Shown here: positions 1 through 31,664 of the stretch, piece by piece | How positions within the stretch are numbered: the stretch's first letter is position 1 | Layout of the letters: every line of letters begins with the position of its first letter | DNA from: Saprospiraceae bacterium | Lineage (GTDB): Bacteria; Bacteroidota; Bacteroidia; Chitinophagales; JAHQVX01 | Reading direction: 5' to 3' | Assembly (NCBI GenBank): GCA_019634125.1 | Contig: JAHQVX010000139.1 | Location: forward strand, 1-33,243 | Length of the DNA stretch: 33,243 bases | Position numbers and translations under genes: made by a program | Notes under the pieces: model-generated | Seen by the model: the letters and a program-made list of their open reading frames with translations, nothing else | What the model was told of the DNA's origin: nothing | Databases searched by the model: none

Positions 1-276
1 GTCGATAAAAACAAGGACGTTTGCTTCCATATCTGGAATAAGAAACTCTTCAGGATTTAAGCTTAAGCTACCTGCTTTAGCTACTTTGAAGGGGTGTTGC
101 TTAAGATCGTCTAAGTTGATATAGCGATACTCTTCGTGTTTCTTACCTGGTAGGCCAGTTCGTTTGAATTGTTCAAAAGCGGCTTGCCGCTTTTGATGAA
201 AACTACTGCCTTTACTTCCGTTTAAAGAAGCTTCAAACGTATCGAAATTAATTTGTATATCCGAAATACTATTCAT
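1..276 (-). CDS. sufD: SufD, Fe-S cluster assembly protein (N-terminal part, cut by window edge)
   Basis: The first 92 codons of sufD are visible; the gene runs off the left edge. SufD joins SufB and SufC in the SufBC2D scaffold complex that builds Fe-S clusters in the cytosol. The stretch PGKKHEEYRYINL at about residues 43-55 is typical of SufD N-termini. The ATG is 14 nt after the sufC stop, and AAAGGAG lies 8-9 nt ahead of it, an unusually clear Shine-Dalgarno for this kind of genome, which supports this start. It is the third gene of sufB-sufC-sufD. Codons 27-35 contain a perfect 11-bp inverted repeat (173-196). Identification rests on the N-terminal motif plus operon position and is strong. 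Confidence 0.9.
   Translation of the reverse strand, partial: MNSISDIQINFDTFEASLNGSKGSSFHQKRQAAFEQFKRTGLPGKKHEEYRYINLDDLKQHPFKVAKAGSLSLNPEEFLIPDMEANVLVFID
173..196. repeat. Intragenic inverted repeat, 11-bp arms, 2-nt loop (sufD)
   Basis: TCAAAAGCGGC, loop TT, GCCGCTTTTGA, over the HQKRQAAFE codons of sufD. Confidence 0.85.
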
Positions 277-4306: not shown

Positions 4307-4335
4307 AAAACCACCCCGGACGGGGTGGTTTTTTT
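4307..4335 (+). terminator. Rho-independent terminator
   Basis: AAAACCACCCCG, loop GA, CGGGGTGGTTTT, then more T. The perfect 12-bp stem and T-run lie 22 nt after the upstream stop. The arms AAACCACCCC/GGGGTGGTTT recur exactly in the rpoD terminator at 13267-13289. Confidence 0.9.
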
Positions 4336-4377: not shown

Positions 4378-5838
4378 ATGTTGAAGCCACTTTTTTTCGG
4401 TTTATGTTTCTTTTGGGCAGCTTTCGCTGCCGCCCAGGAGCCATTTATTCGTACCGAATTTGGATTGGGGCAGTATGGATATTTAGAACTCGACGCGCGC
4501 ACCTTTGCCCGACTAGATCGAAATACATTCACCAATATCGACTATTTAAGAGCTCGCTACTATGTAGATGATGGCAACGCCATTGATATGCCCACAAATT
4601 GGGTCTACAACACCCCATTTGATTGGCAATGTAGCGGGGGAATGGATCAGTTTCGAGATAGTCCAGACTTTAATCCGCTCAACTTTGGTGCCGAGTGGGA
4701 AGCGGGTGCCGATGTAGATGTTTCGGTTTATGCCAACTACTGCGGTGGTACTCAGAGCTATACCGACCCTCAAGTAGATATTGGCTTTAATCAACGGCAT
4801 TATGAAGTAGTAGATGTAGATGCAGCTGCACACATCTCAGATCAATTAGGCATTGAAGATGGAAATGGAGATTGTACTTCGGCATTAGTAGCCTCCTTTA
4901 CTATTGATGTGGGGGCTAAAACCGATTTGTCGATAGAACGATTATTTGTCGAGAATGTGGGCACTGCCCAAGAAGTCACCAATATACCCAATGCAGCGTT
5001 TACCGTCTTTTACGAACCTGTAACCGGTTCAGAATCATTTGATGGTACTGAAAATATAGCTGCATTTATGTTGTTTGGTGATTGGGGCGGAAACCCCACA
5101 AACAATAATATTTACGGAGCAGAAGGGTTGAGTATACCACTACTAACCCAAACCCGGATATATATCGCAGCTTGCGATCTAGAAACAGGGTCTAATGGCT
5201 TATCCATTGAACTCAATATAATTAACGACGGGATTTCTCTTGGCCCAGCCAATGATACCAGTTTCGATCTGTTACGAATTGATGAGACGAGCATTTCCCG
5301 ACAAGCATTGATATTGCCCGTTGAGCTTTCTGGTTTTTTTGGTGAAGCTACACCCAATGGTATTCAATTAAATTGGAAGACAAGCAATGAAGAAGGATTT
5401 TCTCATTTTGAAATCGAACGTAGCTTGGATGATACCACGTTCCAATCTCTAGGGAGAGTGACTGCGAATGGAGCAGGGTCTTATGCTTATCTGGATGCAT
5501 TTAGTCCTAAGGTAGAGACGTTGTATTATCGATTAAAAATGGTCGATAAAGATGGGCGTTATTGGTATTCAGATATTCTACGCCTGAAACCTCTATTCAC
5601 CGAAGAAATCACTATGTTTTTTGATCCTGCCCAAGGCGGAATTGTAGTGCAGGGCTTAAAGCAGCAAAAGGGTGATGTAGCAGTTTTTATTTACTCAATC
5701 AGCGGCACATTAGTGGCAGAAAGACAAGGACAGTTGAGCCAGCCTGTTGTAAATACAAGTGCCATCAGTGCTGGGATGTATATCGTAGTACTATTAATTG
5801 ACGAGAAAAGGGTAGTGAATAAAGTTGTCGTTCCCTAA
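4378..5838 (+). CDS. Secreted protein with type IX secretion-like C-terminal sorting domain (paralogue of preceding gene)
   Basis: A 486-aa exported protein; the signal peptide ends near FAAAQ at about residue 20. Residues about 20-310 form a beta-rich, aromatic, aspartate-rich region (NWVYNTPFDWQCSGG, a few cysteines) that I do not recognise. From about residue 315, LPVELSGFFGEATPNGIQLNW to YYRLKMVDKDGRYWYSD matches the fibronectin-III-like region of the preceding gene, followed by a sorting tail ending SAGMYIVVLLIDEKRVV. It is therefore likely secreted or surface-anchored through the type IX system, for which no machinery gene is in this window. Its stop is one base from the stop of the convergent Nudix-type gene, with no terminator hairpin between. 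A loose promoter box (TATTTTG, 4354-4360) precedes the start. Confidence 0.85.
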   Translation: MLKPLFFGLCFFWAAFAAAQEPFIRTEFGLGQYGYLELDARTFARLDRNTFTNIDYLRARYYVDDGNAIDMPTNWVYNTPFDWQCSGGMDQFRDSPDFNPLNFGAEWEAGADVDVSVYANYCGGTQSYTDPQVDIGFNQRHYEVVDVDAAAHISDQLGIEDGNGDCTSALVASFTIDVGAKTDLSIERLFVENVGTAQEVTNIPNAAFTVFYEPVTGSESFDGTENIAAFMLFGDWGGNPTNNNIYGAEGLSIPLLTQTRIYIAACDLETGSNGLSIELNIINDGISLGPANDTSFDLLRIDETSISRQALILPVELSGFFGEATPNGIQLNWKTSNEEGFSHFEIERSLDDTTFQSLGRVTANGAGSYAYLDAFSPKVETLYYRLKMVDKDGRYWYSDILRLKPLFTEEITMFFDPAQGGIVVQGLKQQKGDVAVFIYSISGTLVAERQGQLSQPVVNTSAISAGMYIVVLLIDEKRVVNKVVVP

Positions 5839-8901: not shown

Positions 8902-10118
8902 TAGCCTCTTTTTACTGGAAAAGTCATGCAATGCGGGCCACCTCTTGCTCTTGAAAGTTCGGCGGAAGGAATGGTGAAAATAAATTTACCCAAGTCTTCC
9001 ACGTTCAAATCACCATCTTTATTGAGTTTAAGAAAAGTTTCTGCCCGCATAATCGTGTAGCCTTTATCTTGAAGGGCATCGGCGGTAAATGTATTTCTAG
9101 CATAGGCGATTGCAAGGCCAGGTCGGAGCGTCACGAGGTTACAACCATCTGTCCATTGTTCTCGTTCATCGTGAGGCGAAATGCCGTTACCACATTCAAT
9201 GACAACGACTTCTGGAATCACCGACTGTAGGAATTCGAGCAAGTCTTTATAAATCTCTATAGAGCCATTCTTATTATGGACGGTAAATTTCACTTTTTGA
9301 TCGTCCATCATGAGTTTGTTAAACGCAACGAATTCGGTTTCACTAATTTGTGTAAATACTGTATCGATATGCATGTAAGAACGCTCATCAGGAATTTCTA
9401 CAGTGACTACATTATCTATAACTTCTTTTTCGAATAGTAGTTCTGTGATGCGTTGAATAGCTTTATGGGTCGTACGTTCACTGGCTCCAATTAAAACATG
9501 TGTCGGTGAGATGACCATGACATCACCGCCTTCGACGGTGATGTCATCCGGCTCGTCTGTTATATCAATGATCTTATTCTCGCTCCAGAAGCTGCGAAAT
9601 TCCTTGTGATGATGGAAAAAACAACTGGAAATAATGTTTTCTCTTGACCGTGCTTTTGTAGCGGCCTGGCAAATGAGTAAGTGATCGTTAATGACGACAC
9701 CAATATCTCTGGTGAACACATAATTGGGAAGTGGCGCAAAGAATTCTGCCCCATTTTTTGGATTCACCCCATTAAACATAAGGTAAGCCAAATCCTTCGC
9801 CGATAAATATTTGATTTCTTGTTCAATCTCTTCCGCCAGTGTTTCATGTTCTACTACCTCTTGAATCAATTGTGCTTTAGCAGCGGCATTGTTTCTTAGA
9901 ATGTCGAGCAGCATATCCTGTGTTTCAATAACACCGTCTTCGCCAATAACGGTACGAATCGTATCGGTGAAGATGTCGTGCTCTTTTTGCATTTCTGGCA
10001 AATAGGTAATGTCGTCGTACAGGAATTCCAAGGCTTTGTCGGGCGTAACTCGTTGTAATCCGTCATCGGGGCGATGAACCACTACTTTTTTGAGTGGAGA
10101 GACTTCGTTATTTACCAT
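8901..10118 (-). CDS. arcA: Arginine deiminase family protein
   Basis: A 405-aa guanidino-modifying enzyme, most likely hydrolysing arginine to citrulline and ammonia. The catalytic set is visible: FTRD (135-138), EGGD (196-199), H250-x-D252 in MHIDTVF, and the nucleophile C397 in the C-terminal GGPHCMTFPVKRG. Length and motif spacing fit arginine deiminase. No ornithine carbamoyltransferase, carbamate kinase or arginine/ornithine antiporter gene is nearby, so a full ArcABC pathway is not shown here. crcB overlaps its stop. The codons for the EGGD motif form one arm of a perfect 12-bp inverted repeat with a 7-nt loop (9517-9547). No clear TAnnTTTG box is seen upstream. Confidence 0.88.
   Translation of the reverse strand: MVNNEVSPLKKVVVHRPDDGLQRVTPDKALEFLYDDITYLPEMQKEHDIFTDTIRTVIGEDGVIETQDMLLDILRNNAAAKAQLIQEVVEHETLAEEIEQEIKYLSAKDLAYLMFNGVNPKNGAEFFAPLPNYVFTRDIGVVINDHLLICQAATKARSRENIISSCFFHHHKEFRSFWSENKIIDITDEPDDITVEGGDVMVISPTHVLIGASERTTHKAIQRITELLFEKEVIDNVVTVEIPDERSYMHIDTVFTQISETEFVAFNKLMMDDQKVKFTVHNKNGSIEIYKDLLEFLQSVIPEVVVIECGNGISPHDEREQWTDGCNLVTLRPGLAIAYARNTFTADALQDKGYTIMRAETFLKLNKDGDLNVEDLGKFIFTIPSAELSRARGGPHCMTFPVKRG
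9517..9547. repeat. Intragenic perfect inverted repeat, 12-bp arms, 7-nt loop (arcA)
   Basis: ATGACATCACCG, loop CCTTCGA, CGGTGATGTCAT, inside arcA across the DDITVEGGDVM codons. The repeat of GD/DD-type codons could explain part of it, so it is weaker evidence than the short-loop cases. Confidence 0.6.
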
Positions 10119-10165: not shown

Positions 10166-10576
10166 TTAGCAACAAGCCACCTTGCTGGCTTGTTGTTTTT
10201 TCTTACGATTTAAATAGATGGAATAGGCCAAAAGTAGGCCGCCAATCGTCGCTAGAATAGCTTCCGCAATATGGTGATGGGTGACATGGCCCGAAATAAT
10301 GAAGCTAAAGCCCAAGAGCATGGTTGCTAAGGGCGCATATTTTTTGTGGTGCTTCATAAATCCAATGATATTGATGGCTCCTGTAATCAGGAAGGACAGT
10401 GCCAACAAAATGATTTCAAAGGCTGGATTGGCAAATACGGTTGAACTCATCACAGGTAGTAATGCGATAAATACAGGTGTGAGTATACAATGTACGACAC
10501 ATACAAAAGACAACCCTAAACCGATTCGCTCGGATAAAGAGTGTGCGTTGAACTGTTTGAACCACTTTTGCAACAT
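10166..10576 (-). CDS. MerC-domain membrane protein
   Basis: A 136-aa protein with four predicted membrane helices and the MerC-type motif CVVHCILTP in the first helix region; it ends in a basic, cysteine-tipped tail (KKKQQASKVACC). MerC proteins carry thiol-reactive metals across the inner membrane, but many chromosomal homologues in this phylum sit beside Fur-family genes and their metal is not known. The ATG at 10576 (MLQKWFK) lies exactly at the centre of a 25-nt palindrome, and the minus-7 box TACTTTTG (10582-10589) is inside one palindrome arm, so the mRNA should be leaderless and repressible by whatever binds there. A TTG start 18 nt upstream is possible but unlikely. The stop region contains an inverted repeat (10170-10195). 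Confidence 0.82.
   Translation of the reverse strand: MLQKWFKQFNAHSLSERIGLGLSFVCVVHCILTPVFIALLPVMSSTVFANPAFEIILLALSFLITGAINIIGFMKHHKKYAPLATMLLGFSFIISGHVTHHHIAEAILATIGGLLLAYSIYLNRKKKQQASKVACC
10170..10195. repeat. Inverted repeat at the 3' end of the merC-like gene, 10-bp arms, 6-nt loop
   Basis: CAACAAGCCA, loop CCTTGC, TGGCTTGTTG, covering the last codons. Read on the plus strand it is followed by TTTTTTCTT and so resembles a terminator antisense to the gene; on the sense strand no T-run follows. Confidence 0.55.
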
Positions 10577-10588
10577 TGTTGCAAAAGT
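10564..10588. promoter_or_regulatory. 25-nt perfect palindrome, candidate Fur-family operator over the merC start codon
   Basis: ACTTTTGCAACA, centre T, TGTTGCAAAAGT. The minus-7 box TACTTTTG (10582-10589, minus strand) and ATG (10574-10576) of the MerC-like gene are within it or at its edge, and the Fur-family gene on the other strand starts downstream. The AT-rich, odd-centred dyad is Fur-box-like in size. Binding by the neighbouring regulator is inferred. Confidence 0.65.
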
Positions 10589-10688: not shown

Positions 10689-11042
10689 ATGGACGTCTTA
10701 AATGCGTTTTTAAGTAAGGAAAATGCGCTATCGCATCATGCGGTAGAGCAGGCGTTGTCATCGAATATGGATCGAGTTACGCTTTATCGTACGTTAAACA
10801 GTTTTATCGAGAAAGGCATATTACATAAAGTGACAGACAATTCGGGCATTTCCCATTTTGCCTTATGTCATTCTTGTGATCATGAGCACCATTTCGATGA
10901 GCATGTGCATTTCAAGTGTACATCTTGTGAGTCGATGGTGTGTATTGATACGGCTATTTTGGAAGCGCCAGCGCTTCCAAAAGGTTACGCGACGCAGTCT
11001 ATGAAAGTAGTCTTAGAAGGAACTTGTCCGAAATGCGTTTAA
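10689..11042 (+). CDS. Fur-family metal-responsive repressor (true start probably upstream of this ATG)
   Basis: A Fur-superfamily regulator: winged helix with RVTLYRTLNSFIEKGILHKV, histidine-rich metal region CDHEHHFDEHVHFKC, and two CxxC pairs (CTSC and the C-terminal CPKC) for structural zinc. From this ATG it is 117 aa, but the 18 in-frame codons just upstream (10635-10688) encode IKPQEILKAHGLRSTPNR, the conserved first helix of the family, and no ATG, GTG or TTG precedes them before a TGA at 10620. Either a rare start (ATC/ATT) is used or the nine-A run at 10622-10630 hides a length error; with one A fewer, TTG at 10619 would be in frame. Metal specificity (iron, zinc, peroxide) cannot be told. 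It is divergent from the MerC-like gene across a palindrome and convergent with the GNAT gene, overlapping by TTAA. Confidence 0.88.
   Translation: MDVLNAFLSKENALSHHAVEQALSSNMDRVTLYRTLNSFIEKGILHKVTDNSGISHFALCHSCDHEHHFDEHVHFKCTSCESMVCIDTAILEAPALPKGYATQSMKVVLEGTCPKCV
10957..10982. repeat. Intragenic perfect inverted repeat, 12-bp arms, 2-nt loop (fur-like gene)
   Basis: TTTTGGAAGCGC, loop CA, GCGCTTCCAAAA, 60 nt before the stop of the Fur-family gene; it encodes ILEAPALPK, normal for the family. It is the longest short-loop arm pair inside a gene in this window. Confidence 0.85.
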
Positions 11043-11524
11043 AGGGACTTGAGCATTTGCACATCACATGCACTATGGCCGGTATTCCCTAAAGGGCCAT
11101 TAATAATTTCAAAACCGAATTTTGTGTAAAGTGCCTGAGCAGCATGCATGTGTGCAAAGGTTTCGATGTAGCATTGTTTGTAGCCTTTGCCTTTGGCAAA
11201 GGCTAAGCTGGCTTCCACAATTTTATAACCCAACCCATTTCCGCGGTGTGCTTTTGAAATGTACATATTTTGAAACTCACAGATATCAGAATCAGCCCCT
11301 TTTAGTGGAGCAATGCCCCCACCGCCAACAATTTGGCCTTTATACTCAATAACTAAATACGTTTTGTTCTCCCCAGTATAAAACTCCGTCATATTCGATA
11401 ACGAAGGGTCATTGTAGGCAGTGCCTGGCCGGTCACCGCCATATTCCTTCAGAGTGGTTTTAATTACTTGTTCTAAAGCCGCATTGTCTTCCCAGCGAAT
11501 TTTGCGTATGGAATAGGTATTCAT
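11039..11524 (-). CDS. GNAT-family N-acetyltransferase
   Basis: A 161-aa acetyl-CoA-dependent acetyltransferase. The core acetyl-CoA loop is visible in QNMYISKAHRGNGLG (motif A, R/Q-x-x-G-x-G/A type, here RGNGLG), followed by AFAKGKGYKQCYIET and the C-terminal AAQALYTKFGFEII. The substrate is unknown. Its ATG overlaps the ffh stop as TAATG, so it is translated downstream of ffh; its stop overlaps the convergent Fur-family stop in TTAA (11039-11042). It contains a perfect 11-bp inverted repeat (11181-11205). Confidence 0.9.
   Translation of the reverse strand: MNTYSIRKIRWEDNAALEQVIKTTLKEYGGDRPGTAYNDPSLSNMTEFYTGENKTYLVIEYKGQIVGGGGIAPLKGADSDICEFQNMYISKAHRGNGLGYKIVEASLAFAKGKGYKQCYIETFAHMHAAQALYTKFGFEIINGPLGNTGHSACDVQMLKSL
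11181..11205. repeat. Intragenic perfect inverted repeat, 11-bp arms, TTT loop (GNAT gene)
   Basis: TAGCCTTTGCC, loop TTT, GGCAAAGGCTA, covering the codons for LAFAKGKGY. Confidence 0.85.
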
Positions 11525-13261: not shown

Positions 13262-13290
13262 TAAAAAAACCACCCCGAAGGGGTGGTTTA
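13262..13290 (-). terminator. Rho-independent terminator of rpoD (UUCG-type loop)
   Basis: On the minus strand AAACCACCCC and GGGGTGGTTT close around TTC, making a C-UUCG-G tetraloop, followed by a seven-T run. It lies 24 nt after the rpoD stop. The arms are identical to those of the terminator at 4307-4335. Confidence 0.92.
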
Positions 13291-15989: not shown

Positions 15990-17695
15990 TCTTCAGCTAC
16001 ACTTGACAATGCATCGATCAACTCTTTGTCTTTGCCGTATACATCCTTTCTGACCTGTAGTACGCCCTTTTGGTCCACCCAGGTCGTGTAATAGGTAATG
16101 GTCACTTGCATGCGCTCGGGCACATTGATGATCTTATACTCATCGGTGTCCTTAAACTCTTTGTAAATCGGATTATCCTTTAAAATTAACGCACCTAAAC
16201 GATCGGGCTCCCGAACTCTTACACATCCATGACTTTGCGCTCGATTATCGACGTAGAAGTAGCTCTTTGATGGCGTGTCGTGTAGATACACACTATGCTT
16301 ATTTGGAAACAAGAACTTTATTTTACCCAAAGCATTGCCAGCACCTGGATCTTGTACAATTCGATAAGGAAAGTCTTCCGGTGTATACATCCACCAATCA
16401 ACACTGTCTCTGGGTTGTTCTTCTCGGCCATAAAATACCCGGTAATTGTTCTCTAACAAATAATACGGATTAGCTTGTACATTCGGTAAGATTTCCAGCG
16501 TTGAAATACTTTTTGGAACATTCCATTTTGGATTAATCACTACGGTTTCCATCGTATCCATAAACTCTGGGGTCTCATAGTTTCGAACGTACTTAGGCCG
16601 ATCTTTAGCTGTGAAGTTGTAATAGTTTTTCGGATGTTTCTTTCCAACAACAACTATGATGGTGTCTAGTGCTTTTCCCTTTTCGTAATAGACCAAATTA
16701 TAGTCTGGGATATTCACCAGTATGTAATCAGATTTATTTGTATTTAGTTGCCATCTAAAACGTTCCAACGTAGCCCGAATTTGTTCAGTGCGTTCTTCTG
16801 GTGAGGTATTTAACGCAGCATGGGTGGCCGGACCTATAATGCCATCTGGTTTCAAGCCATGATTGGCTTGAAAGGTTTTTACCTGCTGAACAACTTCTGC
16901 ATCGTATACTATATTGGGTACTGCTTTTCCATCTACAGAATCTATGATGGGTTGCAGTCCAAAACGTTCACGGAGTAACGGAACCATTCTATACTTTTTG
17001 TTGGGCTCCATCTTCTTTACAGTCAAATTAGGAAGGGCTTTCCAATCATCGTGAGATTGGGTGTTCCAGTTGGTGTAATACTCTTGGAGTGCCTTGTATT
17101 TCGGATGTGAAGGGTACGCTTCGTTTAACAAGGTGAGTTTCTCTTTCGAGCTAAAGAACTCGTTATAATAACTACTGTCTGGTAGGATGACAGGCAAATG
17201 GTAGCCGCTTAAGAACGTCGTTTTGGGATTTACCGCACCATAGTTCATGGTTTTGTGGTAGGCTAGAGCGGCCAATAAGGTTTCCTTTTCCAATTTAGCT
17301 AGCAACAAATGACTCGTACTGTCTTTGGATCTAATTTGAAATGTAGAATCGATTTGTTCTTTTAAAAATTGAATTTGCTCCAATCGAGGGGCTAACCGAT
17401 TATAGAAACCATGGTTATGTGCTTCAGTCAGGATTTTCTGAATGGAATCGATGTTTTTGAGGCCATTTTTCGAAGTCAGTAGAAAGGGGTATTCTTCGTT
17501 CTCTATAAGTGTTTTGAGGATGGGGTAGAGCACAGTGTCATCAGCTGGATCAAGCAGGTTGTTGAGTTCTTGACTCAAGCTAAACGTGTTCAAAGGAAAA
17601 GAGGTCGCTCTATGTTTACGAGCGTTCGCTTTTTTGCAGCTGGCTACACCAAGGAGGCATAGTATAAGAAGTGTAAGTAGGCCCCTCTGTTTCAT
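15965..17695 (-). CDS. L,D-transpeptidase, YcbB/LdtD-like lipoprotein with peptidoglycan-binding domain
   Basis: A 576-aa envelope enzyme that likely forms 3-3 crosslinks in peptidoglycan. A lipoprotein signal (LLGVASC) puts it on a membrane. An N-terminal scaffold domain (to about 240) is followed by a PGBD1-type peptidoglycan-binding domain (VKTFQANHGLKPDGIIGPATHAALN) and the YkuD catalytic domain with SHGCVRV holding the catalytic cysteine. I chose the ATG at 17695 (MKQRGLLTL) because it begins the signal peptide; an in-frame start at 17722 is possible. It lies 36 nt after the smaller transpeptidase-type gene, so they may be co-transcribed. Its last 25 nt overlap yhhQ. The peptidoglycan-binding domain codons carry an inverted repeat (16850-16873). 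Confidence 0.9.
   Translation of the reverse strand: MKQRGLLTLLILCLLGVASCKKANARKHRATSFPLNTFSLSQELNNLLDPADDTVLYPILKTLIENEEYPFLLTSKNGLKNIDSIQKILTEAHNHGFYNRLAPRLEQIQFLKEQIDSTFQIRSKDSTSHLLLAKLEKETLLAALAYHKTMNYGAVNPKTTFLSGYHLPVILPDSSYYNEFFSSKEKLTLLNEAYPSHPKYKALQEYYTNWNTQSHDDWKALPNLTVKKMEPNKKYRMVPLLRERFGLQPIIDSVDGKAVPNIVYDAEVVQQVKTFQANHGLKPDGIIGPATHAALNTSPEERTEQIRATLERFRWQLNTNKSDYILVNIPDYNLVYYEKGKALDTIIVVVGKKHPKNYYNFTAKDRPKYVRNYETPEFMDTMETVVINPKWNVPKSISTLEILPNVQANPYYLLENNYRVFYGREEQPRDSVDWWMYTPEDFPYRIVQDPGAGNALGKIKFLFPNKHSVYLHDTPSKSYFYVDNRAQSHGCVRVREPDRLGALILKDNPIYKEFKDTDEYKIINVPERMQVTITYYTTWVDQKGVLQVRKDVYGKDKELIDALSSVAEDQLLAAVS
16850..16873. repeat. Intragenic perfect inverted repeat, 10-bp arms, 4-nt loop (L,D-transpeptidase)
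   Basis: TTTCAAGCCA, loop TGAT, TGGCTTGAAA, across the FQANHGLK codons of the peptidoglycan-binding domain. Confidence 0.8.
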
Positions 17696-18527: not shown

Positions 18528-19526
18528 TTAAAGGTTGGATAGAAAAGCAAGGGTGTCCACATTGTCTGCATAGTCTTTGAGCCCTGGCCTTTGGCTACCG
18601 CCAAAGGCTAAATGCTGCATCCCGTCCACCACGCATTGAATATGGTCTCTCTCTGCTTTTATCCATGCATAAGCTTCTTCAACAGATGTATATTTTTGGT
18701 AGTGTAGCGTGGCGATCCGAGCATGGAGGCTTTCCGACTCGGTGACCATCATACATTCATTTACGTAATGTGGAATTTTATTCAGCAACAACAGCGTGAG
18801 GTTGTAATCGAAATTATTCTTGTACTTATTATTCTGTATCACTTCTTTTTGGCCGTCTAAGGCTTCCATAAGTGGCTCGAAGGCATAATCTTCAGGAACA
18901 AAAATCTTGGATACATTTCTGCAACCCAGTCCGAAATAATCCAATACATCTTTGCTTAGCAACTGAAGTTGTTCTGGACTTTCTGTTCCGGTTAAAACCG
19001 CAACTCCGTTGCGGTTTTTTCGGATAATGTTGGGGTACTTACTAAAGTAGTAATCAAAATAACGGGCACTATTATTACTGCCGGTAGCAATCACGGCGTC
19101 AAAATCTTTGAGTCGCTCCGTAAGCACAATGCGTTCCTTTAAGCTCGGTTCCCAAGTAAAAAGTTGCTCAAGAATATGATTAAACAAGACTTCATCCTTC
19201 GACGATAGTCTGATTAAAGCCCGATGGCCCGACACTAAAACAGCAAGCAAATCATGAAAACCCACTAAAGGAATATTACCAGCTAGAATGAGTCCGATCG
19301 TTTTAGTGGAGGAAGCTGGTGGATAACTAGCGGCCCAGGCCGCTAGTTGTTCGCTATTTAAATATTGTTCGGCAATAGCGGTCAATGATTGACGAATATT
19401 TTTTTGCGTAAACCACGGATTTAACCGCTCAGCTTGCTGAGCGGTAGCCAATAATTTTTCACTGTCGGAAACCAAATACTGGCCCAATTGTGTTAATACT
19501 TCTAGAGTGCGGGAATCCTGCATCAT
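18528..19526 (-). CDS. LuxC-like acyl-CoA reductase family protein
   Basis: A 332-aa protein of the LuxC/acyl-CoA reductase family (aldehyde-dehydrogenase fold), which reduces fatty acyl-CoA or acyl esters to aldehydes with NADPH. The catalytic cysteine is C202 in GLGCRNVSK; SSTKTIGLILAGNIPLVGFHD begins the nucleotide-binding part, and VIATGSNNSARYFDYYF is also typical. No luxD, luxE or luciferase genes are near, so bioluminescence is not suggested. The start at 19526 (MMQDSRTLEV; 19523 equally possible) is preferred to a longer frame running into the ferredoxin gene. It is divergent from the ferredoxin gene, sharing a symmetric promoter. It carries four perfect inverted repeats, the densest cluster in the window. 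Confidence 0.85.
   Translation of the reverse strand: MMQDSRTLEVLTQLGQYLVSDSEKLLATAQQAERLNPWFTQKNIRQSLTAIAEQYLNSEQLAAWAASYPPASSTKTIGLILAGNIPLVGFHDLLAVLVSGHRALIRLSSKDEVLFNHILEQLFTWEPSLKERIVLTERLKDFDAVIATGSNNSARYFDYYFSKYPNIIRKNRNGVAVLTGTESPEQLQLLSKDVLDYFGLGCRNVSKIFVPEDYAFEPLMEALDGQKEVIQNNKYKNNFDYNLTLLLLNKIPHYVNECMMVTESESLHARIATLHYQKYTSVEEAYAWIKAERDHIQCVVDGMQHLAFGGSQRPGLKDYADNVDTLAFLSNL
18587..18608. repeat. Intragenic inverted repeat, 9-bp arms, 4-nt loop (acyl-CoA reductase)
   Basis: GCCTTTGGC, loop TACC, GCCAAAGGC, about 60 nt before the stop (LAFGGSQRPG codons). Confidence 0.8.
18994..19018. repeat. Intragenic inverted repeat with T-runs both ways, terminator-like (acyl-CoA reductase)
   Basis: AAAACCGCAAC, loop TCC, GTTGCGGTTTT. 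On the plus strand it continues into six T; on the coding strand the arm also ends in four T. It has the form of an intrinsic terminator inside the gene (KNRNGVAVL codons). Confidence 0.8.
19325..19348. repeat. Intragenic inverted repeat, 11-bp arms, 2-nt loop (acyl-CoA reductase)
   Basis: AACTAGCGGCC, loop CA, GGCCGCTAGTT, across the EQLAAWAAS codons. Confidence 0.85.
19424..19445. repeat. Intragenic inverted repeat, 10-bp arms, 2-nt loop (acyl-CoA reductase)
   Basis: ACCGCTCAGC, loop TT, GCTGAGCGGT, across the TAQQAERLN codons, 78 nt from the previous repeat. Confidence 0.85.
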
Positions 19527-19546
19527 TAATTTTAGGTAAAATGGAC

Positions 19547-19565
19547 TATTTTTGCCGCAAAAATA
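19547..19565. promoter_or_regulatory. Mirror-symmetric divergent promoter: TATTTTTG on both strands
   Basis: TATTTTTGC, centre C, GCAAAAATA: a perfect 19-nt palindrome. Each half is an exact TAnnTTTG box, one pointing to the ferredoxin (ATG 19579) and one to the acyl-CoA reductase (ATG 19526). Two polymerases could not occupy both boxes at once. Confidence 0.6.
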
Positions 19566-19578
19566 AAGAAAGTACGCT

Positions 19579-19926
19579 ATGGCGATAATGATCACTGACG
19601 AATGTATTAACTGTGGAGCTTGCGAACCAGAATGCCCAAACAATGCCATCTATGAAGCTGGCGATCAGTGGGCTATTTCGGATGGAACTACAGTGACTGG
19701 AGAGTATCAACTTGGCGACGGCCAAGTTGTGATGGCCGATGATAAACAAAACGCTGTAGCAGACGACTTCTATTATATCGTAGCCGATAAGTGTACTGAA
19801 TGTGTTGGTTTCCACGAAGAACCGCAATGTGCTGCCGTTTGTCCGGTAGATTGCTGTGTTCCTGATCCAGATCATGTGGAGGATGAAGCCACACTTCTCG
19901 AACGAAAAGATCGATTGCACCTGTAA
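19579..19926 (+). CDS. 2[4Fe-4S] ferredoxin (YfhL-like)
   Basis: A 115-aa cytosolic electron carrier. The first cluster motif is [12 protein letters not shown] (C9, C12, C15, C19); the second is [18 protein letters not shown], with an eight-residue insertion between the second and third cysteines, as in YfhL/Allochromatium-type ferredoxins with low redox potential. The N-terminal [15 protein letters not shown] is diagnostic. It is divergent from the acyl-CoA reductase gene with a shared palindromic promoter. Its redox partner is unknown. It carries a 9-bp inverted repeat (19708-19729). Confidence 0.93.
19708..19729. repeat. Intragenic inverted repeat, 9-bp arms, 4-nt loop (ferredoxin)
   Basis: CAACTTGGC, loop GACG, GCCAAGTTG, across the QLGDGQVV codons. 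Confidence 0.8.
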
Positions 19927-21231: not shown

Positions 21232-22671
21232 ATGAGTGAATTGTACAGTAACGACATTGCATTTGAAACGAAGCAGCAGATGGCAGAACATCTCCAAGGC
21301 AAAGCCTTGGAGCTCGACGATACCGAAAAAAACTACAACAAACACTTTTATATTGAGAGCTACGGCTGTCAAATGAATTTTTCAGATAGTGAGATTGTAG
21401 CCTCCATCCTTAACGGAGCGGGATTTGGCCACACCAAAGACTTTACCCAAGCAGATCTCGTACTCATTAACACCTGTTCTATTCGAGAAAAAGCAGAACA
21501 AACAGTACGGAAACGACTTCAACTCTTCAATGGAGCCAAGAAGACGCGACCGAATATGATGGTAGGCGTTTTGGGATGTATGGCAGAACGATTAAAGAAG
21601 AAGTTTCTTGAAGAAGAAAAAATGGTTGATCTCGTAGTGGGCCCAGATGCATACCGTGATTTGCCGAAACTTGTTGCAGAGGCTGAAGGCGGACAAAAAG
21701 CAGTGAATGTCTTCCTATCCAAAGAAGAAACCTACGCAGATATCAACCCGATTCGACTCAACTCCAATGGTATTACAGCCTTCATTTCCATTATGCGCGG
21801 CTGTGATAATATGTGCTCATTTTGCGTAGTGCCATTCACTCGAGGTCGGGAAAGGAGTCGTTCGCCAGAAACTATTGTCGCTGAGGCACAAGAACTAGCC
21901 AACAAAGGTTATAAAGAAGTGACGTTACTAGGTCAAAATGTAGACTCCTACAAATGGTCAACCGAAGCATCTGAAGAAGTCGTGACTTTCGCCAACCTCT
22001 TAGAATTAGTTGCGCAAGTTAGCCCAGATCTTAGAGTGCGTTTCTCCACTTCCCATCCAAAAGATATTACCGATGATGTTTTACATACCATGGCTAAGTA
22101 TGAGAATATCTGCAACTACATTCACCTACCACTTCAAAGTGGGAATTCACGGATTCTCGAGAAGATGAATCGTACCTATGACCGGGAATGGTACATGCAG
22201 AAAGTTGATCGCATTCGAGAAATTATTCCAGATTGTGGCATCTCTTCAGATATGATCGCCGGTTTTTGCTCCGAAACCGAAGAAGAACACCAAGACACGT
22301 TATCCATGATGGACTATGTGAAGTACGATATGAGTTATATGTTTTTCTACAGCGAACGTCCAGGCACTCTAGCTGCTCGTAAATACGAAGATGATGTACC
22401 CATGGAAACGAAGAAAAGACGTTTGCAAGAAATTATCGACCTTCAGCAAAAGCATAGTGCAGAAAGCAACCAGCACGACATCGGAAAGACATTTAAAGTA
22501 CTTGTAGAGAAAGTGTCTAAAAAATCGGATCAAGAATTGGCCGGACGAAATTCTAGAAATAAAATGATTGTATTCCCACGTGAATCGTATAAAATTGGCC
22601 AGTATGTACATGTAAAAGTACATGATGCTACAAGTGCGACACTCATTGGAAAAGCAGTAAGGCCGGCGTAA
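21232..22671 (+). CDS. miaB: tRNA-2-methylthio-N6-(dimethylallyl)adenosine synthase MiaB
   Basis: A radical-SAM methylthiotransferase that adds the 2-methylthio group to i6A37 of tRNAs. The 479-aa protein has the N-terminal UPF0004 domain with cluster cysteines C46 (ESYGCQMN), C82 (NTCSIREKA) and C116 (GCMAER), the radical-SAM CxxxCxxC at C191, C195 and C198, and a C-terminal TRAM domain. [11 protein letters not shown] favours MiaB over MtaB/RimO. The start at 21232 (MSELYSND) is preferred to an upstream TTG. It heads a tightly packed operon; its TAA overlaps the next ATG as TAATG. Being an Fe-S enzyme, it depends on Suf. Codons 21-27 form an inverted repeat. Confidence 0.95.
21292..21312. 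repeat. Intragenic inverted repeat, 9-bp arms, AAA loop (miaB)
   Basis: CTCCAAGGC, loop AAA, GCCTTGGAG, near the 5' end of miaB (LQGKALE codons). Confidence 0.8.
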
Positions 22672-25986: not shown

Positions 25987-26265
25987 ATGGCCGAATTAAA
26001 CATTACGCCTTTGGCAGATCGAGTAGTTGTTCAGCCTGCAGAAGCAGAAACTACAACCGCATCTGGAATTATTATTCCAGATACGGCTCAAGAAAAACCT
26101 CAAAAAGGAAGCGTAGTAGCCGTTGGCTCTGGAAAAAAAGATGAACCAATGACCGTTAAAATTGGCGATGCTGTCCTCTATGGAAAATACTCAGGAACAG
26201 AAATCACTATCGACGGAAACGATTACCTAATCATGAGAGAATCTGATATTCTCGCTATCGTTTAA
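25987..26265 (+). CDS. groS: Co-chaperonin GroES
   Basis: The 10-kDa heptameric lid of the GroEL chamber. The 92-aa product is normal: [17 protein letters not shown] at the start, the mobile loop [17 protein letters not shown] (about 18-34), and [14 protein letters not shown] near the end. The ATG at 25987 (MAELNITPL) is right; an in-frame ATG at 25927 would add 20 residues outside the family. A near-consensus sigma-54 promoter precedes it. groL follows after 33 nt. Confidence 0.97.
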
Positions 26266-26277
26266 ATCCCCATTTAA

Positions 26278-27930
<1,653 letters not shown>

Positions 27931-27953: not shown

Positions 27954-27990
27954 ACCCCATCTCGGCAAAGCCGAGATGGGGTTTTTCTTT
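27954..27990 (+). terminator. Rho-independent terminator of groS-groL
   Basis: ACCCCATCTCGGC, loop AAA, GCCGAGATGGGGT: perfect 13-bp stem followed by a T-rich run. It is the longest stem in the window. Confidence 0.95.
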
Positions 27991-31080: not shown

Positions 31081-31664
31081 CGGTTCTGTGCCACGAGTAG
31101 TTGGTGCACTTCTAAGGCTTGCTTGATCAAGGAGTCTTTACCATTATTGTGAATGACAATATCTGCTTGTTCCACTTTTTGTTGTTGAGGCAGTTGCGCA
31201 GCCATTCGCTGGCGAATGGCTGATTCATCGACACTATCTCTCGACATTACTCGGGAAATCCGTAATTCCTCAGGAGCATCTACTACAATAACTGCATCAA
31301 AGGCATTTGCTCGTTTGATTTCATAGATAATTGCCGATTCGAAGAGTACATATGGGGCTGACTGTTCGCCGATCCATCGGGCTTGGTCTCTAAACACGGC
31401 AGGATGAACCAAGCTGTTTAAAAGATCCAGCTTTGCTGGATCTTGAAAGACTTGTTCACTTAAAAACGCTCGATTTAACCGCCCACTCTCATAAGCTTCA
31501 GACCCGAAATGCTGCTGAATAGCTGCTATAAGTTCCGGATCTGTATGCATTAACGCCTTCGCTGCGCGATCGGAAAAGTAGACAGGTATGCCCAGAATTT
31601 GAAAGATGTTGGCCACAGTGGTCTTACCCGTTCCGATTCCACCGGTTATGGCCACCTTAAGCAT
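31077..31664 (-). CDS. coaE: Dephospho-CoA kinase
   Basis: Performs the last step of coenzyme A synthesis, phosphorylating the 3'-OH of dephospho-CoA. The 195-aa product has the P-loop GGIGTGKT (8-15), the FSDRAAKALMH acceptor region, LVHPAVF and the lid with SVDESAIRQRMAAQL. It starts directly after the yajC stop with no gap (31664/31665), as the last gene of nusB-yajC-coaE. Its stop overlaps that of the convergent lipoprotein gene. Two perfect inverted repeats lie inside (31199-31222 and 31422-31444). Confidence 0.95.
   Translation of the reverse strand: MLKVAITGGIGTGKTTVANIFQILGIPVYFSDRAAKALMHTDPELIAAIQQHFGSEAYESGRLNRAFLSEQVFQDPAKLDLLNSLVHPAVFRDQARWIGEQSAPYVLFESAIIYEIKRANAFDAVIVVDAPEELRISRVMSRDSVDESAIRQRMAAQLPQQQKVEQADIVIHNNGKDSLIKQALEVHQLLVAQNR
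31199..31222. repeat. Intragenic inverted repeat, 11-bp arms, 2-nt loop (coaE)
   Basis: CAGCCATTCGC, loop TG, GCGAATGGCTG, over the SAIRQRMAA codons, 122 nt from the stop. Confidence 0.85.
31422..31444. repeat. Intragenic inverted repeat, 10-bp arms, TTT loop (coaE)
   Basis: AAGATCCAGC, loop TTT, GCTGGATCTT, over the QDPAKLDLL codons. Confidence 0.85.

Follow-up and report, generated by a model that had tools for sequence, protein, structure and literature searches.

The LuxC-Like Gene and the Hairpins of the Window

The window, that is, the whole stretch of 33,243 nucleotides analysed from a Saprospiraceae bacterium, contains a gene for a LuxC-like acyl-CoA reductase on the minus strand. 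The mechanical ORF extends to position 19649, and the start at 19523 or 19526 was picked by eye. The gene product matched PF05893 in the profile search with 23.8 bits (cut-off 21), and a match to the gene was found in 57 of the 59 genomes searched, the source genome counted in. The neighbour of the LuxC-like gene in divergent orientation is a 4Fe-4S ferredoxin gene, and a 9-bp hairpin lies in the short intervening gap (window positions 19523-19579). The four perfect stems of 9, 11, 11 and 10 bp reported in the initial annotation were confirmed, all of them within the LuxC-like gene. The features of this region are as follows; hairpins are given without strand.

18528..19523, minus strand, LuxC-like acyl-CoA reductase gene with the four reported hairpins (ORF listing; PF05893)
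18587..18608, hairpin 1 of the LuxC-like gene, arms 9 bp, loop TACC (4 nt)
18994..19018, hairpin 2 of the LuxC-like gene, arms 11 bp, loop TCC (GGA on the coding strand)
19325..19348, hairpin 3 of the LuxC-like gene, arms 11 bp, loop CA
19424..19445, hairpin 4 of the LuxC-like gene, arms 10 bp, loop TT
19547..19565, hairpin in the gap separating the LuxC-like and divergent ferredoxin genes, arms 9, loop 1
19708..19729, coding hairpin, ferredoxin gene, arms 9, loop 4

Hairpin 2 falls in the conserved KNRN-x-VAVL stretch of the LuxC-like protein. Such stems are beyond chance: ten dinucleotide shuffles of the window give 0.9 ± 0.8 perfect inverted repeats with arms of at least 9 bp and loops of at most 8 nt, and the window itself has 22. 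Nineteen of the 22 are in a listed ORF and three are intergenic, and some ORFs may start too early (e.g., over 27954-27982). The other hairpins of the window are listed below.

173..196, intergenic hairpin, arms 11, loop 2
4307..4332, intergenic terminator-like hairpin with a T-run, arms 12, loop 2
9517..9547, coding hairpin, arginine deiminase gene, arms 12, loop 7
10170..10195, hairpin, MerC-like gene (3' end), arms 10, loop 6
10564..10588, hairpin, MerC-like ORF (5' end), arms 12, loop 1
10957..10982, coding hairpin, FUR-like gene, arms 12, loop 2
11181..11205, coding hairpin, GNAT gene, arms 11, loop TTT
13267..13289, hairpin, TfoX_N-like ORF (near its start), arms 10, loop GAA
15853..15877, coding hairpin, Vut_1 gene, arms 11, loop TTT
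16850..16873, coding hairpin, YkuD gene, arms 10, loop 4
21292..21312, coding hairpin, radical-SAM/TRAM gene, arms 9, loop AAA
24446..24466, coding hairpin, arms 9, loop TTT
26061..26082, coding hairpin, Cpn10 (GroES) gene, arms 9, loop 4
27954..27982, terminator-type hairpin (GGC-AAA-GCC core, T-run) just 3' of the long ORF 26299-27930, arms 13, loop 3
31199..31222, coding hairpin, CoaE gene, arms 11, loop 2
31422..31444, coding hairpin, CoaE gene, arms 10, loop TTT

Abundance of Hairpins in the Source Genome

The source assembly (G000) is a 2.2 Mb draft in 146 contigs and is 83% complete. A sample of 832,479 bases (38% of the assembly) was analysed, consisting of the window and contigs C1-C60 at up to 20 kb each, 61 pieces altogether, with ORFs called mechanically throughout. 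By the criteria used for the window (arm ≥9, loop ≤8), the sample contains 512 perfect inverted repeats, or 0.615 per kb. They are present in all 61 pieces at densities from 0.30 to 0.90 per kb, and scaling to the 2.2 Mb assembly gives an estimate of ~1,360. Within ORFs, 380 hairpins were observed versus 28.7 in synonymous-codon shuffles, and thus the excess is set by codon choice; for hairpins with a 3-nt loop the numbers are 205 and 3.7. The coding density (loop ≤4) is 0.47 per kb, and that of divergent intergenic DNA is no higher (7 hairpins in 13.6 kb, 0.52 per kb). Spacing is near random (coefficient of variation of the gaps 0.91), and avoidance of gene starts was not seen in the sample. 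The four hairpins of the LuxC-like gene belong to this class of perfect DNA hairpins, 21-27 nt long, which is found genome-wide and mostly inside genes.

The initial annotation had taken the density of stems to mark out the LuxC-like gene. Among 734 ORFs, those with at least 1, 2, 3 and 4 hairpins (loop ≤4) number 270, 82, 15 and 3, and the Poisson expectations are 273.6, 74.2, 17.8 and 4.1. For a single 996-nt gene, the probability of four or more hairpins is 0.0014. Because the distribution of hairpins over ORFs is Poisson, the cluster in the LuxC-like gene is chance within a genome-wide swarm, and what had been noticed is one end of a genome-wide distribution. Regulation specific to this gene was rejected on the same scatter.

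Comparison with orthologues had been proposed as a check. Complete stems are kept in 0 of 109 orthologues (0 of 104 at the fourth site), and the mean numbers of pairs at the sites of hairpins 1 to 4 are 4.2 of 9, 6.1 of 11, 3.2 of 11 and 2.2 of 10. Since the orthologues all come from other families of the phylum, with identity of 53% at best, this refutes only deep conservation of the stems and leaves their recent maintenance untouched.

Structural Features of the Coding Hairpins

The coding hairpins are 21-27 nt long and perfect, and usually have 3-nt GNA loops (TNC on the complement) closed by a C-G pair. Loop length peaks at 3 nt (280 of the 512 repeats), whereas it is flat in other Bacteroidota. 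The observed and Markov-expected numbers of hairpins with a 3-nt loop are 173 and 165 at arm length 6, 74 and 51 at 7, 39 and 9 at 8, 87 and 3 at 9, 84 and 1 at 10, 45 and 0 at 11, and 41 and 0 at 12. The share of GNA/TNC among the loops increases from 18% at arms of 6 bp or less to 67% at 8 bp and 71% at 9 bp; among the coding hairpins with a 3-nt loop it is 136 of 205. A C-G closing pair is seen in 65-74% at arm lengths 9-11, compared with 19-20% at 4-6. The GNA loop and the C-G closing pair of C-GNA-G DNA mini-hairpins are therefore both present. The C-GNA-G loop is exceptionally stable in DNA; the sequence GCGAAGC is named in the literature.

On the coding strand the main loops are balanced, GNA being found 69 times and TNC 67 times. 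AAA occurs 25 times and TTT 15 times, and the clearest strand asymmetry is that of AA loops (36) versus TT loops (11). GNA shows no preference for the regional keto-rich strand (39:44). Perfect stems predominate: 10-bp stems with loops of 2-4 nt in ORFs include 207 perfect ones (2 expected) and 126 with one internal mismatch (57.5 expected). Single mismatches in stems are G.T (G.U in RNA) in 12 cases and A.C in 28, with no preference for G.U. Pairing ceases at the stem end. Most hairpins have a predicted stability, as DNA, of about -8 to -13 kcal/mol, and shorter stems are richer in G+C (63% in 9-bp arms, 49% in 11-bp arms). Strand symmetry, loops of the DNA type and the absence of any tolerance for G.U all locate the cause in DNA.

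The coding hairpins do not share a sequence family, as 362 distinct inner 9-mers are seen among 369 of them. Homology between flank and arm was considered as a source of the arms, and no excess of common words was detected. Around coding hairpins in all pieces of the source genome, 5' arms are C-rich and 3' arms are G-rich, and the adjacent flanks are opposite.

Protein Sequence at the Hairpins and Homologous Sites

Homologues were available for ORFs containing 142 hairpins, of which 118 entered the pairing test and 102 the loop test. The residue identity to homologues is 40.1% at hairpins and 42.5% elsewhere in the same ORFs, and the alignments show no gap excess at hairpins. The near-normal identity without a gap excess indicates that the stems sit where the protein permits, via codon choice. 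Insertion was rejected as their origin, as gaps are not in excess.

The homologous sites are already partly paired (0.341 versus 0.262 in shifted control windows, 118 hairpins), as for a site that was partly palindromic before conversion. Perfect stems at partly palindromic sites support template switching, because template switching makes such stems. The two arms are equally similar to homologues (absolute difference 0.196 versus 0.189), in a test of low power with homologues ~48% identical in DNA. The loop of the hairpin at 18994, with a Ser-to-Gly change, had hinted at loop inversion by hairpin flipping. This was rejected genome-wide, as 12 of 102 loops fit better inverted against a background of 11.9%; loop inversion is required only of inter-strand template switching and not of the intra-strand form.

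Two gene copies with 96% identity have ~15 differences, none of them at 23 hairpin bases, in this single case. The perfect hairpin is located at L037:11293-11315 and L204:6239-6261, both copies ending at a contig end, and its site is presumably the H-box region of a histidine kinase. The copies are either strain variants or paralogues.

Codon Bias around the Hairpins

The synonymous strand bias switches at hairpins: the coding strand is G/T-rich on the 5' side and A/C-rich on the 3' side. Upstream, the share of NNG in two-fold NNR codons is 0.43 at 0-12 nt, compared with 0.294 in the genome, and that of NNC in NNY codons is 0.35-0.36, compared with 0.387. Downstream, NNC is 0.55 and NNG is 0.17-0.28. 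Both sides of the hairpin are affected symmetrically, and the effect declines over ~1 kb. When hairpin positions were shifted within each piece (500 permutations; loops of 5 nt or more left out), the z value of this footprint was 13.2 at 12-100 nt, 10.3 at 100-350 nt, 6.6 at 350-900 nt, 2.2 at 900-1300 nt and -0.4 beyond. Stems of 6-7 bp have little or no footprint, and 8-bp stems have a weaker one than longer stems. Intergenic hairpins of the source genome also show the footprint; it was not seen at intergenic hairpins of G019, a genome of the same order, and of 80 named Bacteroidota loci.

Beyond 350 nt, with hairpins oriented by the regional keto-rich strand, the effect is more distinct on the 3' side (-0.021 ± 0.004) than on the 5' side (+0.009 ± 0.005). 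This difference reaches only z = 2.2, and a long-range footprint on one side in the regional orientation is kept as a hint. The footprint fits single-stranded gaps beside stalled synthesis, assuming that the keto bias reflects single-strand exposure.

Distribution in Other Genomes

The comparison covered 120 genomes (80 named Bacteroidota and 40 of the same order, 2.21 Mb), the closest being relatives from the same order and all of them outside the source family. The 4-kb loci L003-L031 were excluded because of overlap with L132-L171. Coding hairpins with a 3-nt GNA/TNC loop and arms of at least 9 bp number 136 in the source sample and one in the 2.21 Mb. Hairpin counts are 69 in 800 kb of G019, 84 in 712 kb of the 40 order relatives, and 233 in 1.50 Mb of the 80 named Bacteroidota loci. 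The inverted-repeat coverage (arm ≥10) is 11.2 bp per kb in the source genome versus 1.2-2.9 in the comparison sets; outside the phylum, the comparison covered 50 kb of E. coli, for coverage only.

A covariance model, R1, was built from 18 hairpins chosen with Y-type loops, some taken as the reverse complement. It gave 19 matches in the source genome and one across 58 relatives. In a coarse census with 20 candidates scored per genome, at least 13 were found in the source genome, and no single genome exceeded 2 among 394 of the class or 1 among 394 of the phylum. As a result of its training set the model favours the Y-type loop, and thus the R1 census is a floor.

Gene loss does not account for the pattern. 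The mutS gene is present (partial, at a contig end); xseA and a full match to sbcD are absent, but likewise in relatives where the pattern is not found. Loss of sbcD, xseA or mutS is therefore not distinctive, and it is weak evidence in an assembly that is 83% complete. A Y1 transposase was also rejected as the cause: two matches are present in the source genome (one above the cut-off), but relatives carry it too (26 of 40 genomes).

Relationship to Known Inverted Repeats

Short, perfect and close inverted repeats have been described as over-represented in prokaryotic coding DNA, with template switching proposed (Ladoukakis and Eyre-Walker 2008, as cited in the survey PMC4060949). In the relevant passages of PMC4060949, this excess is small for 6-9 bp, and Azobacteroides, Thermoanaerobacter, Allivibrio and Cyanobacterium are among the extreme genera. 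The source genome differs: its excess is not clear at 6 bp and peaks at 9-10 bp, and the genome has GNA triloops and a codon footprint. Nematomorph mitochondria, in the part of PMC6649704 that concerns them, have perfect coding palindromes of up to 284 bp, both arms of which encode conserved residues, with imperfect ones nearly absent, and repeat conversion is proposed. Both sets are perfect and intragenic, but the present hairpins are 21-27 nt long, lie in a bacterial chromosome and keep to a stability window. For perfect inverted repeats of bacteria, a section of PMC13155455 gives a mean of 3.14 inverted-repeat bp per kb, a mostly intergenic location and a spacer of 4. The repeats are perfect with a spacer of 8 or less in both cases; in the source genome they cover 11.2 bp per kb, are mostly coding and have a spacer of 3. 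Searches of open-access papers gave no evident precedent for GNA triloops as a class within coding DNA, or for a switch of codon bias at hairpins.

An excess of short inverted repeats in genes is already known, but it is usually weak and hard to interpret. The source genome shows the class sharply enough for rules to be read from it: triloops are of the DNA type, stability keeps to a window, strand symmetry is strict, and the mutational footprint extends ~1 kb.

Origin of the Coding Hairpins

We give an even chance to the explanation that template switching on hairpins of single-stranded DNA makes and maintains the perfect stems. The steps that we infer are folding, stalling and arm copying. 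One strand would be single-stranded during replication or repair, and a partly palindromic site with a stable triloop of the C-GNA-G or C-AAA-G type would fold and stall the polymerase. The polymerase or the nascent strand would then copy the opposite arm (quasi-palindrome template switching), by which the stem would become perfect and be kept perfect. Outcomes damaging to the protein would be purged by selection, leaving stems at positions that the protein sequence tolerates. Repeated stalling would leave single-stranded gaps, and these would explain the codon-bias footprint. The hairpins would then be the product of a strong local mutational drive in the source lineage and would have no task in the LuxC-like gene.

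The initial annotation had suggested a hotspot of template switching in the LuxC-like gene. The direction of this suggestion holds as a property of the genome, and it fails as a property of that gene; perfect stems, DNA-stable loops, partly palindromic homologue sites and the switch of synonymous strand bias all point in this direction. Template switching of this kind is known in E. coli, yeast and rRNA genes, and the relevant parts of these reports describe how stalled synthesis at a hairpin turns imperfect repeats into perfect ones, with stable loops favoured (PMC7202029, PMC8604942, PMC8794818). There, the events concern particular sites, whereas here a whole genome seems to be shaped, as judged from sequence alone. 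If this is true, the genome would be a natural record of small hairpins forming in the chromosome in vivo and disturbing synthesis on both sides, and it would also show that codon choice can be shaped genome-wide by template switching. The creation and the limits of intragenic palindromes become testable by comparing a few strains of the source lineage.

Several observations stand against template switching. The arms are equally similar to homologues, loop inversion is absent, and no gene loss explains the hairpins. A simple mutational process should give more stems of 6-8 bp than of the 9-10 bp at which the excess peaks, and thus a mutational account has to assume a stability threshold. Divergent intergenic DNA, where protein constraint is absent, has the same density as coding DNA. 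Because of the 9-10 bp mode, the arm symmetry and the equal intergenic density, template switching is held at an even chance and a selected DNA structure is retained as a possible, less favoured alternative.

According to this alternative, the hairpins are folded-DNA sites of set stability recognised by proteins, at ~0.5-0.6 per kb, for replication, repair, uptake or the nucleoid. Such selection would suit the narrow stability window with its 9-10 bp mode, the fairly even density over the 61 pieces, and the equality of coding and divergent intergenic densities. The local codon footprint implies long persistence of sites at one place, and the 96% identical copies keep all 23 hairpin bases among their ~15 differences. 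On the other hand, the hairpins have neither a shared sequence nor a REP-type flank motif, their spacing is near random, and no binder is put forward. A more specific proposal, which we regard as rather doubtful, is a sequence-free structural signal, a folded-DNA element of set stability maintained by the cell every ~1.6 kb, that would act as a programmed pause or restart of replication or repair synthesis and reset the leading/lagging mutational polarity each time.

Selection of structure in transcripts, for translation pausing, stability or RNase sites, is improbable. The hairpins would fold in RNA too, most of them are within genes, gene starts are not avoided, and AA loops exceed TT loops on the coding strand; however, the main loops are equal on sense and antisense (69:67), the loop mode is 3 nt and not 4, and G.U is not tolerated above A.C. 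In rRNA, where RNA is selected, GAAA and UUUC loops are in the ratio 99:1 according to a passage of PMC8794818. No Rfam family matched anywhere in the window, and the sense-strand loop bias with G.U tolerance of structured regulatory RNA was not observed. Together with the Poisson scatter over ORFs, this leaves the post-transcriptional control of the LuxC-like gene, suggested in the initial annotation, unsupported.

An artefact of assembly or sequencing, such as fold-back chimaeras in this incomplete draft, is very improbable, as the ORFs remain open, protein conservation at hairpins is near normal, the loop rules are chemical and the codon footprint extends ~1 kb.

Comparison with Terminators and REP Elements

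Non-coding hairpins are found at 5.2 per kb between convergent genes, 2.5 between tandem genes and 0.52 between divergent genes. A T-tract (at least 5 T in 8) follows 81 of 247 non-coding hairpin ends (33%), compared with 35 of 737 coding hairpin ends (4.7%) and a background of 5.9%. Coding hairpins are also shorter than non-coding ones. The contrast in T-tracts and gene arrangement means that terminators and coding hairpins are separate populations. The non-coding hairpins are terminator-like, but it is highly unlikely that the coding ones, shorter and without a T-tract, are intragenic intrinsic transcription terminators. In 27 of 124 non-coding hairpins (e.g., 27954-27982), the terminator hairpins have the inner stem CTCGGC/GCCGAG, often with an AAA/TTT loop.

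REP elements, as GTAG- and CGTC-tagged palindromes, are described in part of PMC3733652 as being 20-40 bp long and of high copy number, with some within genes. The hairpins of the source genome are alike in size, copy number and intragenic copies, but they have neither a repeated sequence family nor a tag, and this identity was rejected. At hairpin ends and in the background, respectively, GTAG is found at 2.26 and 3.66 per kb and CTAC at 2.60 and 3.57 per kb. CGTC (2.37 versus 1.75 per kb) and GACG (2.15 versus 1.75 per kb) are somewhat above background, too weakly for a tag. A dispersed repeat with the stem CTATGGACT/AGTCCATAG is present at L035:4404-4423 and 5225-5244 and at L199:10116-10215, the last being a diverged copy in which the stem is imperfect.
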